Assembly (NCBI GenBank): GCA_025362315.1
Contig: JANYGP010000059.1
Span: forward strand, 1-64,000
Reading direction: 5' to 3'
DNA length: 64,000 nt
Origin: Polaromonas sp.
GTDB taxonomy: Bacteria > Pseudomonadota > Gammaproteobacteria > Burkholderiales > Burkholderiaceae_C
A model generated the notes under the pieces. It had not been told where the DNA came from and ran no database searches. It saw only the letters and a program-made list of their open reading frames with translations. The position numbers and the translations under genes are program-made. Positions 4,911 through 37,690 of this stretch are shown piece by piece (the stretch's first letter is position 1; each line of letters begins with the position of its first letter).

Positions 4911-4985
4911 TGGTACCACCAACAGGAATCGAACCTGTATCTAGCGCTTAGGAGGCACTCGTTCTATCCGTTGAACTATGGCGGC
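4911..4985 (-). tRNA. tRNA-Arg (anticodon CCU)
   Basis: 75 bases including an encoded CCA end. Acceptor stem GCCGCCA/TGGTGGT, D-arm GTTC/GAAC, anticodon stem AGTGC/GCGCT around loop CTCCTAA (anticodon CCT), T-arm ACAGG/CCTGT with loop TTCGATT. A -10-like TACAAT lies at 4995-5000, a proper distance upstream on the minus strand. It decodes the rare AGG codon. The decayed region immediately 3' of it fits the habit of mobile elements to use tRNA 3' ends, but no att duplication was found. Confidence 0.95.
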
Positions 4986-30365: not shown

Positions 30366-30441
30366 GCCTGTATTTTAGGCGCGCGCAAAGGCCAAGCAAC
30401 CCGTGGGGACGCCGCTGGCACAGACTGCCTACAATTACGGC

Positions 30442-31977
30442 ATGACTTCACTCACCTTCAATACATCGTCGGCACTCAACGCGTCCATCACCTCATCAAC
30501 GGTCAAACCAAACCAGACTTCCACGTCAAACCGGCTGGACATTGCACAGCAGTTGCTGCTGAAGCCGTTCGGCTTGACAGAATCGCACTTGTCCAAAGCC
30601 TTGGCAGAGATTACTTCCAAAGGTGCGGACGACGCAGACCTGTACTTTCAATACACCCGCAGTGAAGGCTGGAGCCTGGAAGAAGGCATTGTCAAAACCG
30701 GCTCTTTTAGCATTGACCAGGGCGTGGGCGTGCGGGCTGTCAGTGGTGAAAAAACTGCTTTTGCCTATTCAGACGATATTTCTGAAGCGTCGCTGATGGA
30801 TGCTGCACGCACTGTGCGCAGCATTTCAGGTGCGGGGAAATCTGCCAAGATTAAAACGCCCAGCCGCAAAGTTGCCAACAGCCGCACGCTGTATGAAGGC
30901 CATGACCCGATTGCCACACTGGGCAGCACAGCCAAAGTCAAACTGCTGGAGAAAGTGGAAAAACTTGCCAAAGCCAAAGACCCGCGCATCGTGCAGGTGA
31001 TGGCTGGCCTGGCCAGTGAATACGACGTGGTGATGGTGGCGCGCGCCGACGGCACGCTGGCTGCTGATGTACGGCCGCTGGTGCGCTTGTCAGTCAGTGT
31101 GATTGCCGAGCAAACTGTTGGCGGCCAGGCCAGGCGCGAGACCGGCTCGGCAGGTGGCGGCGGCCGCTTTGGCCTGGCGTATTTTGACGATGCGCAAATT
31201 GGCCAGTATGTGGACGAGGCTGTCAAAGCGGCACTCACCAACCTGCAAGCGCGCCCTGCACCGGCCGGTGAAATGACAGTGGTTCTGGGCTCTGGCTGGC
31301 CCGGCATTTTGTTGCACGAAGCAATTGGGCATGGGCTGGAAGGTGACTTCAACCGCAAGGGGTCGAGTGCATTTGCGGGCAAGATTGGCCAGCGCGTGGC
31401 TGCTAGAGGGGTGACGGTGCTGGACGACGGCACCATTGCCGACCGGCGCGGTTCGTTGAATGTGGACGACGAAGGCAACGCCAGCCAGCGCAATGTGCTG
31501 ATTGAAGATGGCATTTTGAAGGGCTACATTCAGGATTCACTGAATGCGCGCTTGATGAACGTCAAGCCCACTGGCAATGGCCGCCGCGAAAGCTATGCCC
31601 ACACGCCCATGCCGCGCATGACCAACACCTACATGCTCGGTGGTGACAAGGATCCGCAGGAAGTTGTCGCCAGCATCAAGAAGGGTTTGTATGCCACCAA
31701 CTTTGCGGGCGGCCAGGTTGACATCACATCGGGCAAGTTTGTGTTTTCAGCCAGCCAGGCATATTGGGTTGAAAACGGCAAAATTTTGTACCCGGTAAAA
31801 GGCGCAACGATTGTTGGCAGTGGCCCGGAGTGCCTGAAAAAAGTCAGCATGATTGCCAACGACATGGCACTCGACAGCGGCGTGGGTACCTGCGGCAAGG
31901 AAGGCCAGAGTGTGCCGGTAGGCGTTGGCCAACCGACGCTGCGGATCGATGGGTTGACTGTTGGTGGAACAGCCTGA
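30442..31977 (+). CDS. tldD: Metalloprotease TldD
   Basis: 511 residues, U62 family. The zinc motif HEAIGHGLEGD is at about residue 291; GYIQDSLNARLMNVKPTGNG and RMTNTYMLGGDKDP follow as in TldD. Acts with TldE/PmbA on peptide substrates (microcin precursors, CcdA). The ATG at 30442 gives a Ser/Thr/Asn-rich extension of about 25 residues before the conserved start (LLLKPFGLTESHLSKAL), so a later start is possible, though no better codon is evident. Confidence 0.94.
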   Translation: MTSLTFNTSSALNASITSSTVKPNQTSTSNRLDIAQQLLLKPFGLTESHLSKALAEITSKGADDADLYFQYTRSEGWSLEEGIVKTGSFSIDQGVGVRAVSGEKTAFAYSDDISEASLMDAARTVRSISGAGKSAKIKTPSRKVANSRTLYEGHDPIATLGSTAKVKLLEKVEKLAKAKDPRIVQVMAGLASEYDVVMVARADGTLAADVRPLVRLSVSVIAEQTVGGQARRETGSAGGGGRFGLAYFDDAQIGQYVDEAVKAALTNLQARPAPAGEMTVVLGSGWPGILLHEAIGHGLEGDFNRKGSSAFAGKIGQRVAARGVTVLDDGTIADRRGSLNVDDEGNASQRNVLIEDGILKGYIQDSLNARLMNVKPTGNGRRESYAHTPMPRMTNTYMLGGDKDPQEVVASIKKGLYATNFAGGQVDITSGKFVFSASQAYWVENGKILYPVKGATIVGSGPECLKKVSMIANDMALDSGVGTCGKEGQSVPVGVGQPTLRIDGLTVGGTA

Positions 31978-32014
31978 GTCTGGTCCTGATTTAACCTGTG
32001 CTACATTTCTAGCC

Positions 32015-32089
32015 ATGCACCAGGCATCGTTTTATTTTGGTTATTTTTGGTTCTCAAGCGCTTCAGGCGGTAGAGAGAATTTTGCGTAA
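32015..32089 (+). CDS. Leader peptide of the DAHP synthase gene (24 aa, aromatic-rich)
   Basis: ATG at 32015, TAA at 32087-32089. Codons 6-13 (32030-32053) encode FYFGYFWF: seven of eight are Phe, Tyr or Trp. Phe, Tyr and Trp are the end products of the pathway started by the downstream DAHP synthase, and a terminator hairpin with an alternative pairing partner follows, which is the layout of ribosome-mediated attenuation (compare the E. coli pheA and trp leaders). No strong ribosome-binding site is visible; an extended -10-like TGCTACATT at 31999-32007 would start transcription only a few bases before the ATG, or the promoter lies further upstream. Confidence 0.75.
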   Translation: MHQASFYFGYFWFSSASGGRENFA

Positions 32090-32145
32090 CCCCAACTAAC
32101 GCTCGAATCTTTCAAAAACCGCCGGACACCCGGCGGTTTTTTTTT
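32051..32145 (+). promoter_or_regulatory. Transcription attenuator: antiterminator/terminator pairings upstream of the DAHP synthase gene
   Basis: GGCGGT at 32066-32071, inside the leader ORF, is complementary to ACCGCC at 32118-32123, the 5' arm of the terminator stem. A ribosome stalled on the aromatic codons (32030-32053) would leave GGCGGT free to pair with ACCGCC and prevent termination; a ribosome reaching the stop at 32089 would cover GGCGGT and allow the terminator. TTCTC (32051-32055) and GAGAG (32073-32077) could form a first, protective stem. Confidence 0.65.
32114..32145 (+). terminator. Rho-independent terminator of the DAHP synthase leader
   Basis: Stem ACCGCCGG/CCGGCGGT with loop ACAC, extended by A-T pairs, followed by nine T. 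It sits 46 bases before the DAHP synthase ATG, so it ends transcription before the structural gene. It could also terminate read-through from tldD. Confidence 0.9.
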
Positions 32146-32190
32146 GGCTTTCAGAGTATTTGATTTTCGATTTAAAAAAGGAAACCCGTG

Positions 32191-33300
32191 ATGACCACCT
32201 CAACTGCCACCTGGTATGCGCCCGCCGACAAAACCAGCCAGACCGACGACGAACGCATCAAGGACATCACCGTGTTACCACCGCCCGAGCACCTGATTCG
32301 CTTTTTCCCGATTCAGGGCACACCGGTTGAAGCGTTGATCACCCACACCCGCAAGAGCATTCACAACATCATTGCAGGCACCGATGATCGTTTGCTGGTG
32401 GTGATGGGGCCGTGCTCAATTCACGACCCAGCTGCTGCACTTGACTACGCGCGGCGTCTGGTCGAGCAACGCAAAAAGTACGCTGGCACATTAGAGATCG
32501 TGATGCGTGTGTATTTTGAAAAGCCCCGTACGACTGTCGGCTGGAAGGGCCTGATCAACGACCCCTACCTGGATGAAACGTACCGCATTGATGAAGGCCT
32601 GAGAATCGCCCGCCAGTTGCTGATTGACATCAACCGCATGGGCTTGCCCGCGGGCAGCGAATTTCTGGACGTCATTTCGCCGCAATACATTGGCGATTTG
32701 ATTGCCTGGGGCGCAATTGGCGCGCGCACCACTGAAAGTCAGGTGCACCGTGAACTGGCCTCGGGCCTGTCTGCACCGATTGGCTTTAAAAATGGCACAG
32801 ATGGCAACATCCGGATCGCAACCGATGCCATTCAGGCCGCCGCACGCGGGCACCACTTTTTGTCGGTGCATAAAAATGGCCAGGTCGCCGTGGTGCAAAC
32901 CAACGGCAATCCGGATTGCCACGTTATTTTGCGCGGCGGCAAGTTGCCCAACTACGACGAAGCCAGTGTGACGGCCGCCTGTACAGAGTTGGCAGCTGCC
33001 AAATTGCCGCCCGCACTGATGGTGGACTGCAGCCACGCCAACAGCTCAAAGCAACATGAAAAGCAGGTTGATGTGGCACGCGATATTGCAAGGCAGGTCA
33101 CCCAAGGTTCAAGGCAGGTTTTCGGCCTGATGATTGAGAGCCACCTCAACCCGGGTTCTCAAAAATTCACGCCCGGCAAAGACGACGCCAGCAAGCTCGA
33201 ATACGGCAAAAGCATCACCGACGCATGCCTGGCCTGGGACGATTCACTCCAGGTGCTGGACGTGCTGTCGGATGCCGTTTCGGCCCGCAGAGCTGGATAA
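32191..33300 (+). CDS. aroG: 3-deoxy-7-phosphoheptulonate (DAHP) synthase, class I
   Basis: 369 residues. Contains GPCSIHDPAAALDYARRL, VYFEKPRTTVGWKGLINDP, GARTTESQVHRELASGLSAP and MVDCSHANSSK, all diagnostic of the AroF/G/H type. Condenses phosphoenolpyruvate with erythrose 4-phosphate at the entry to the shikimate pathway. ATG at 32191 with AAGGAAA upstream (a GTG lies just before it). Control by an aromatic-codon leader and terminator is inferred from 32015-32145. Which end product inhibits the enzyme cannot be told, so the aroG symbol is by similarity only. Confidence 0.94.
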   Translation: MTTSTATWYAPADKTSQTDDERIKDITVLPPPEHLIRFFPIQGTPVEALITHTRKSIHNIIAGTDDRLLVVMGPCSIHDPAAALDYARRLVEQRKKYAGTLEIVMRVYFEKPRTTVGWKGLINDPYLDETYRIDEGLRIARQLLIDINRMGLPAGSEFLDVISPQYIGDLIAWGAIGARTTESQVHRELASGLSAPIGFKNGTDGNIRIATDAIQAAARGHHFLSVHKNGQVAVVQTNGNPDCHVILRGGKLPNYDEASVTAACTELAAAKLPPALMVDCSHANSSKQHEKQVDVARDIARQVTQGSRQVFGLMIESHLNPGSQKFTPGKDDASKLEYGKSITDACLAWDDSLQVLDVLSDAVSARRAG

Positions 33301-37616: not shown

Positions 37617-37690
37617 GCGGGTGTAGTTCAATGGCAGAACGGCAGCTTCCCAAGCTTCAGATAAGGGTTCGATTCCCTTTACCCGCTCCA
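37617..37690 (+). tRNA. tRNA-Gly (anticodon CCC)
   Basis: 74 bases with an encoded CCA. Acceptor GCGGGTG/TACCCGC, D-arm GTTC/GAAC, anticodon loop TTCCCAA, T-arm AAGGG/CCCTT with loop TTCGATT. The anticodon stem GCAGC/GCTTC has one C-T mismatch, which is unusual. TAAAAT at 37602-37607 is a plausible -10 element. Confidence 0.92.

Follow-up and report, generated by a model that had tools for sequence, protein, structure and literature searches.

A ribosome-mediated transcription attenuator that responds to the charging of aromatic tRNAs very probably precedes the gene for type I DAHP synthase (DAHPS; AroFGH family) in the Polaromonas sp. DNA analyzed here (the whole stretch of 64,000 nucleotides, hereafter the window), judging from sequence comparison and predicted folds. 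For Burkholderiales and a second order, such an attenuator would represent a concrete and testable switch acting on the enzyme that opens aromatic synthesis. The features of the region are listed below in terms of window coordinates.

31999..32007, + strand: extended -10 element (TG-C-TACATT), ending 7 nt before the leader ATG
32015..32089, + strand: leader ORF of 24 codons, MHQASFYFGYFWFSSASGGRENFA; ATG at 32015-32017, stop codon TAA at 32087-32089, without a Shine-Dalgarno sequence
32030..32053, + strand: aromatic control region FYFGYFWF, 7/8 residues aromatic
32049..32062, + strand: element 1, partner of element 2 in the 1:2 hairpin that folding predicts in the absence of a stalled ribosome
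32066..32087, + strand: element 2, 5' side of the predicted antiterminator; GGCGGT 32066-32071, GAGAGA 32073-32078, GCGT 32084-32087
32099..32123, + strand: element 3, 3' side of the predicted antiterminator; ACGC 32099-32102, TCTTTC 32108-32113, ACCGCC 32118-32123
32114..32145, + strand: intrinsic terminator (3:4 hairpin and T-run), stem 32114-32125 / 32130-32141
32188..33300, + strand: type I DAHPS, the putatively regulated gene, identified by profile matches
30403..31977, + strand: tldD, upstream neighbor outside the switch (NCBIfam metalloprotease TldD, 643.5 bits; the listed start codon is mechanical)

Leader ORF, terminator and candidate promoter

Reading of the individual bases reproduced exactly the anatomy given in the initial annotation, that is, the leader ORF, FYFGYFWF at 32030-32053, GGCGGT at 32066-32071, ACCGCC at 32118-32123, the terminator, and the gap of 46 bases between the end of the terminator T-run (32145) and the DAHPS ATG at 32191. 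This ATG is preceded by AAGGAA, and an in-frame GTG is present at 32188. The product of the gene matched Pfam DAHP_synth_1 (5e-94) and TIGR00034 (524.8 bits), and its relatives included DAHP synthases in PDB. The leader ORF does not appear to have arisen by chance because its aromatic density was unique among the 1378 distinct-stop ORFs of the window (10-50 codons, both strands): no other ORF had at least six aromatics in eight codons, and five in eight were observed in one other. Among the loci of 62 relatives, 59 ORFs reaching this density of at least six in eight were found in total, of which 58 were the leader. The terminator had the most stem pairs (12) of seven terminator-like sites detected in 2.6 kb (shuffle mean of 3.4 sites), and folding gave a z of -3.1.

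It had initially been stated that neither a clear ribosome-binding site nor a promoter could be recognized. The first part held, as the window's leader has no clear ribosome-binding site, whereas a promoter candidate was found in the extended -10 element at 31999-32007. With the pattern TGnTAnnnT and at least four of six positions matching TATAAT, 61 of 136 leaders, including that of the window, had an extended -10 element whose end lay 6-9 nt ahead of the start codon; in shuffled sequences, the mean number with such an element at 4-9 nt was 0.32 (mononucleotide) or 0.36 (dinucleotide), with a maximum of 2 in both cases. Because the extended -10 element sits 6-9 nt before the start codon, these data suggest that the transcript starts at or within ∼2 nt of this codon and that translation is leaderless or nearly so. 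The start codon was ATG in 134 and GTG in 4 of 138 leaders, and a Shine-Dalgarno-like 4-mer was present in 5 of the 138. No promoter was listed at the leader by a simple promoter scanner, probably because no -35 box accompanies the extended -10 element. In Burkholderia- and Oxalobacteraceae-like loci, inspection by eye revealed TATAAA or TATAGT ∼25-40 nt upstream instead, also without a Shine-Dalgarno sequence.

Distribution of the leader among DAHPS genes

A DAHPS protein search provided 80 loci, which were the best 80 of at least 587 and thus skewed toward close relatives. A locus was counted as positive when at least five aromatics in eight codons were followed by a terminator. On the basis of this definition, the leader and terminator were identified in 62 of these best 80 loci. 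The others comprised L081, in which a leader-like ORF has no terminator, L018, which has no upstream sequence, and 16 loci below the cut-off, among them loci of Polynucleobacter, two of Cupriavidus and L025, which fell just short with 4/8 aromatics and does have a terminator. A further Cupriavidus locus, L079, carries the leader. Both leader and terminator were missing from seven Polynucleobacter or Polynucleobacter-like loci (L026, L027, L029, L053 and L182-L184; G304, G348, G496), the first four of which retain tldD before DAHPS, and both were present in L145, which comes from a genome of 1.2 Mb in the same family. Four loci (L044, L048, L049 and L081) were on MAG contigs labeled Planctomycetota, Verrucomicrobiia, Gemmataceae and Anaerolineae; their DAHPS was 61-67% identical to that of the window, possibly reflecting misbinning or transfer. 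The aromatic ORF of L081, the one without a terminator, reads MSRYFSFFSWYGYF.

We also used a covariance model, R1 (136 positions, built from 58 sequences), to search genomes at several levels. It should be noted that R1 includes the leader itself and that the sets reached through it share that selection effect. In the window's own genome, R1 had one match that was significant as a whole, the window's leader (E 7.7e-19); the next matches, mostly terminator fragments, had E values of 0.027 or worse. Across 300 genomes of the order, 97 matches were found in 91 genomes. Of these matches, 86 were full length, with 77 located directly before DAHPS and 9 elsewhere, and no match without DAHPS was better than E 1.9e-5. 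A DAHPS relative (E 1e-40) was present in 233 of the 300 genomes, and a DAHPS-linked R1 match was missing from 223 of the 300. Judging from these matches, the putative switch is frequent in the order as a whole but by no means universal. Within the window's own family, 58 of 60 genomes (one per genus) had a full-length match, counted whatever gene adjoins it. A second order of the same class had a match in 24 of 121 genomes, in all 24 cases before DAHPS; this is presumably the order of Dyella, whose locus L077 has a similar leader. The class-wide search yielded a match in 10 of 274 genomes, and five matches (L094-L098) were discarded as terminators outside a DAHPS context.

A comparable leader was absent at 20 control DAHPS genes from genomes without an R1 match (none with at least six aromatics in eight codons, two with five). 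No match was obtained in a plasmid search with the leader of L057, and trpE, which was wanted for comparison, was not found in the window's own genome (88.5% complete). According to the initial annotation, the attenuator would have to be abandoned if the leader ORF or either pairing were not conserved in relatives; the leader ORF, aromatic run, antiterminator core and terminator turned out to be retained across many families and in the second order.

RNA elements and the proposed switch

The best sequence evidence for the predicted antiterminator is the conservation of GGCGG independently of the reading frame. In 149 of 158 leaders, an exact GGCGG begins 9-24 nt downstream of the first base of the last aromatic codon; 100 dinucleotide shuffles gave 5.6 such cases on average and 12 at most. 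L002 has GGCCG. Among the 149 leaders, GGCGG was in leader frame 0, 2 and 1 in 40, 103 and 6 cases, respectively, and parsimony on the DAHPS tree gave 13 frame changes (14 on the looser set of 158). Selection at GGCGG acts on the RNA, because the motif stays put while the reading frame changes. The proposal that GGCGGT can pair with the ACCGCC of the terminator was borne out by the predicted fold and by the core being kept in 149/158 leaders. This ACCGCC, the last six bases of element 3, doubles as part of the 5' terminator arm.

In the alignment of 58 sequences, the 8-pair antiterminator helix was paired in 85.8% of cases versus 17-58% in slid controls, and it showed 19 double-change cells, a value reached in 0 of 500 shuffles. 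Two of the five measures were not clearly above shuffles (pairs changed on both sides, 2 vs 1.8; further pair types, 7 vs 5.8), and only 18 of 58 sequences retain the U-A pair located at the core's 3' end. The core pairs were present in the predicted fold of all 63 sequences folded (median z -2.6), and the antiterminator was predicted to fold before arm 4 exists in 157 of 158 leaders. Its second helix, formed in the window by GAGAGA and TCTTTC, beat the median shuffle in 151 of 158 leaders and had p < 0.05 in 37 of these 158 related sequences; in the window, none of 100 shuffles equaled it. With regard to the terminator, 94.7% of cells were paired (0/500 shuffles as high) with 25 double-change cells, and on the tree a terminator pair at the same base had 10 and 12 changes with 5 branches in common. 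The 1:2 hairpin was predicted in 62 of 63 sequences, with an energy slightly better than that of shuffles (median z -0.9).

Covariation flanking the core, at first sight strong support, lost most of its weight in a count on the tree. Pairing beside the core was Watson-Crick in 107 of 158 leaders versus 62 when shuffled; on the tree, joint changes occurred on 2 branches versus 1.4 expected, one of them compensatory, a count that shows mostly old clade differences.

The course of events that we infer, from transcription start through stalling and termination to the response to each amino acid, would be as follows. RNA polymerase would start at or beside the leader ATG, and a ribosome would load on the start codon lacking a Shine-Dalgarno sequence and trail the polymerase. 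When Phe-, Tyr- and Trp-tRNA are charged, the ribosome would traverse FYFGYFWF to the stop codon, where it would cover part of GGCGG along with the second antiterminator helix, or would depart and let the 1:2 hairpin form. With the antiterminator blocked, ACCGCC would pair with the downstream GGCGGT and transcription would end near 32145. When an aromatic tRNA is uncharged, the ribosome would stall at 32042-32053, mask element 1 and free GGCGGT-GAGAGA, which would then pair with TCTTTC-ACCGCC before the second arm of the terminator is made, and DAHPS would be transcribed. On the basis of the usual ribosome footprint, the effective stall codons are likely to be Y10-F13 (32042-32053), and stalls at F6-F8 might not mask element 1.

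When the window was folded piecewise, with the ribosome placed on the Trp codon and the transcript ending at 32126, the antiterminator was predicted at -20.6 kcal/mol, with pairs between 32066-32071 and 32118-32123, 32073-32078 and 32108-32113, and 32084-32087 and 32099-32102. For a complete leader with the ribosome halted on the last aromatic codon, the more stable predicted structure was still the terminator in 144 of 158 leaders, including that of the window. Because the terminator is stabler once its second arm exists, the switch would have to be kinetic, as attenuation switches are generally thought to be. Antitermination would require that the antiterminator forms first and that the polymerase passes before rearrangement. 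If a ribosome waiting at the stop codon is taken to occupy 18 nt on the upstream and 12 nt on the downstream side of it, its footprint covers or reaches the second helix in 151 and GGCGG in 95 of the 158 leaders.

Amino acids possibly sensed, alternative readings and known systems

At least five aromatics in eight codons were found in 134 and at least six in 117 of 138 non-redundant leaders. The value for leaders reached via R1 (74/78 with at least five in eight) is fairer than 134/138, because 62 loci had been selected by that same cut-off. The residues before and after the aromatic run drift across families, and the run itself remains aromatic. It had been suggested that the leader reads all three aromatic tRNAs. 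Phe is present in the run of all 158 leaders, Tyr in 149 and Trp in 100; all three are encoded in 98 of the 158 runs, but Tyr is missing from 9 and Trp from 58. In the 158 leader ORFs, Phe codons were TTT in 434 and TTC in 223 cases, counted without a codon-usage background. The control codons changed among lineages: Trp was dropped in some, and nearly the whole run decayed in one. Decayed runs were observed in family f214, where L170, L165 and L161 have 1, 3 and 4 aromatics per eight codons and retain GGCGG/CCGCC and the terminator; in L170, the RNA elements are kept and the leader has one Phe.

One reading, which in our view comes close to an even chance, is that a leaderless ORF sums the charged Phe, Tyr and Trp tRNA pools at the entry of the shikimate pathway, with the codon mix retuned in each lineage and the RNA switch fixed. 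E. coli uses separate isoenzymes and repressors, aroF being described as under TyrR and aroH as under TrpR (PMC5343134), whereas here a single leader would integrate the signals. The leaders form a natural series with differing Phe/Tyr/Trp mixes before one enzyme, and would thus allow the relative influence of several tRNA signals on one attenuator to be studied. Trp sensing appears to be the least secure part of this proposal, less certain than that of Phe and Tyr, because the Trp codon of the window overlaps an RNA pairing element and 58 of 158 runs have no Trp.

Both points are also consistent with a possible, somewhat more doubtful reading, in which the same attenuator is effectively a sensor of Phe or Phe/Tyr and the Trp codon is kept as part of RNA element 1 (TGG-TTC-TC, with which the TGG of the window overlaps) or by habit. 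Trp accounted for 104 of 1027 aromatics in the runs (10%) versus 518 of 2746 in DAHPS proteins (19%), which favors such a sensor, as does the AroR leader of C. glutamicum, which has Phe-Tyr-Phe and yet is described in a review as unaffected by Tyr availability. On the other hand, 98 of 115 Trp codons were placed 14-27 nt before GGCGG and thus concentrated in the control zone, and the exact Trp position varies between lineages.

A quite unlikely addition to either reading is that the terminated leader RNA of 130 nt or the peptide it encodes also acts in trans, like rnTrpL/peTrpL of Sinorhizobium meliloti. If leaderless and terminated, the leader RNA would be similar to rnTrpL, which is described as beginning with the ATG of trpL (PMC7298713); the S. 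meliloti leader differs in reading Trp only and in having trpE(G) as its target. However, outside the aromatic run the peptide differs from family to family. The conservation pattern also makes it very unlikely that the aromatic peptide itself stalls the ribosome upon binding of a free ligand: arrest peptides retain specific residues, but across families only the aromatic character was kept here, with the order and number of aromatics and the preceding and C-terminal residues all varying, in spite of a hydrophobic aromatic stretch and a peptide start, MSAKFYFYFFW, that is largely conserved in Burkholderia-like loci. Finally, a plain tldD terminator preceded by a chance ORF is hardly credible and is refuted as a full explanation. 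It is true that tldD is the gene next to the leader on its upstream side in the window and that 47 of the 62 leader loci have tldD in their upstream flank. In the remaining 15, however, leader and terminator occur although no tldD was detected within the flank (up to 2 kb), five loci have tldD without a leader, no other ORF of 10-50 codons in the window has 7 of 8 residues aromatic, and promoter-like elements lie between tldD and the leader.

Leaders responding to several amino acids are known for the branched-chain amino acids (ilv) and for Thr/Ile, so that a leader reading more than one amino acid is not a novelty in itself. Neither is DAHPS attenuation, which has precedents in C. glutamicum and Acholeplasma and has been proposed for E. 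coli and Shewanella. Neshat and colleagues are said to have published the primary paper on the AroR leader in 2014. In the C. glutamicum aroF operon, AroR is described as a leader with Phe-Tyr-Phe that mediates ribosome-dependent attenuation in response to limitation of Phe, not of Tyr (PMC11802643, PMC4046766). As here, an aromatic leader peptide precedes a DAHPS gene; AroR differs in belonging to an actinobacterium and in the three aromatics named for it, without Trp, and the likeness drawn here is one of description. The motif uORFC-13-1, a computational prediction, is reported before aroF in Acholeplasma and environmental sequences (PMC8632094). It shares with the present case an upstream ORF with Phe codon(s) and a terminator before a DAHPS gene, and differs in that its consensus is given with a ribosome-binding site and at least one Phe. 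Attenuators of aroF have also been proposed for E. coli and Shewanella, in the latter for Tyr (PMC2659441, PMC8632094), and likewise have DAHPS as their target. In the open-access (PMC) literature, which formed the scope of our search, we recognized no description of a DAHPS attenuator in Burkholderiales or Xanthomonadales.

At the Rfam gathering threshold, nothing besides two tRNA genes of the window (37617-37687, + strand, and 4914-4985, - strand) was found in the window or in L057, L077, L013 and L068. Phe_leader (RF01859) matched the window with 26.3 bits (E 0.018) over positions 1-125 of 125, short of its gathering threshold of 55, and had no match to L057 or L009 even at E 1. A weak match of the window to ncS54, a Burkholderia sRNA (17.4 bits), was dropped, as this family had no match to the Burkholderia locus L057.

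In Ralstonia solanacearum, reporters of aroG1 and aroG2 are described as rising ∼10-20 fold when the other gene is deleted; in the deletion strains, 1 mM Phe lowers them two- to three-fold, and the wild type responds little to Phe (in rich medium, from 47 to 40 and from 49 to 41 Miller units) (PMC6379268). The words 'leader' and 'attenuat' are absent from that article. If aroG1 and aroG2 carry the leader, the switch might also be relevant to their derepression and Phe response. In glyphosate-adapted Burkholderia anthina, an 11-bp repeat expansion has been reported 'upstream of' DAHP synthase. We found a doubled 11-bp TACCCGCCCGC repeat in one of 61 genomes, at L224 (G694:C2, near 389246), just 3' of another DAHPS paralog. 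The repeat was rejected as a lead on this switch because the adjoining paralog has no leader, and the wording of that report may describe a different arrangement.

Another type of aromatic leader, exemplified by MITFSAVFNAYFYWYRSSRRLQGASLD and MNTQSFLACSYYWYRTPTGGARLE, was observed in L172, L173, L175 and L176, which belong to one genus (f198/g302), and in L177 (f221), with genomic context in L226 and L227. These leaders precede an ORF of ∼180-200 aa that has no Pfam match and is not DAHPS, and they carry GGCGGC together with a GCCGCC..GGCGGC terminator.
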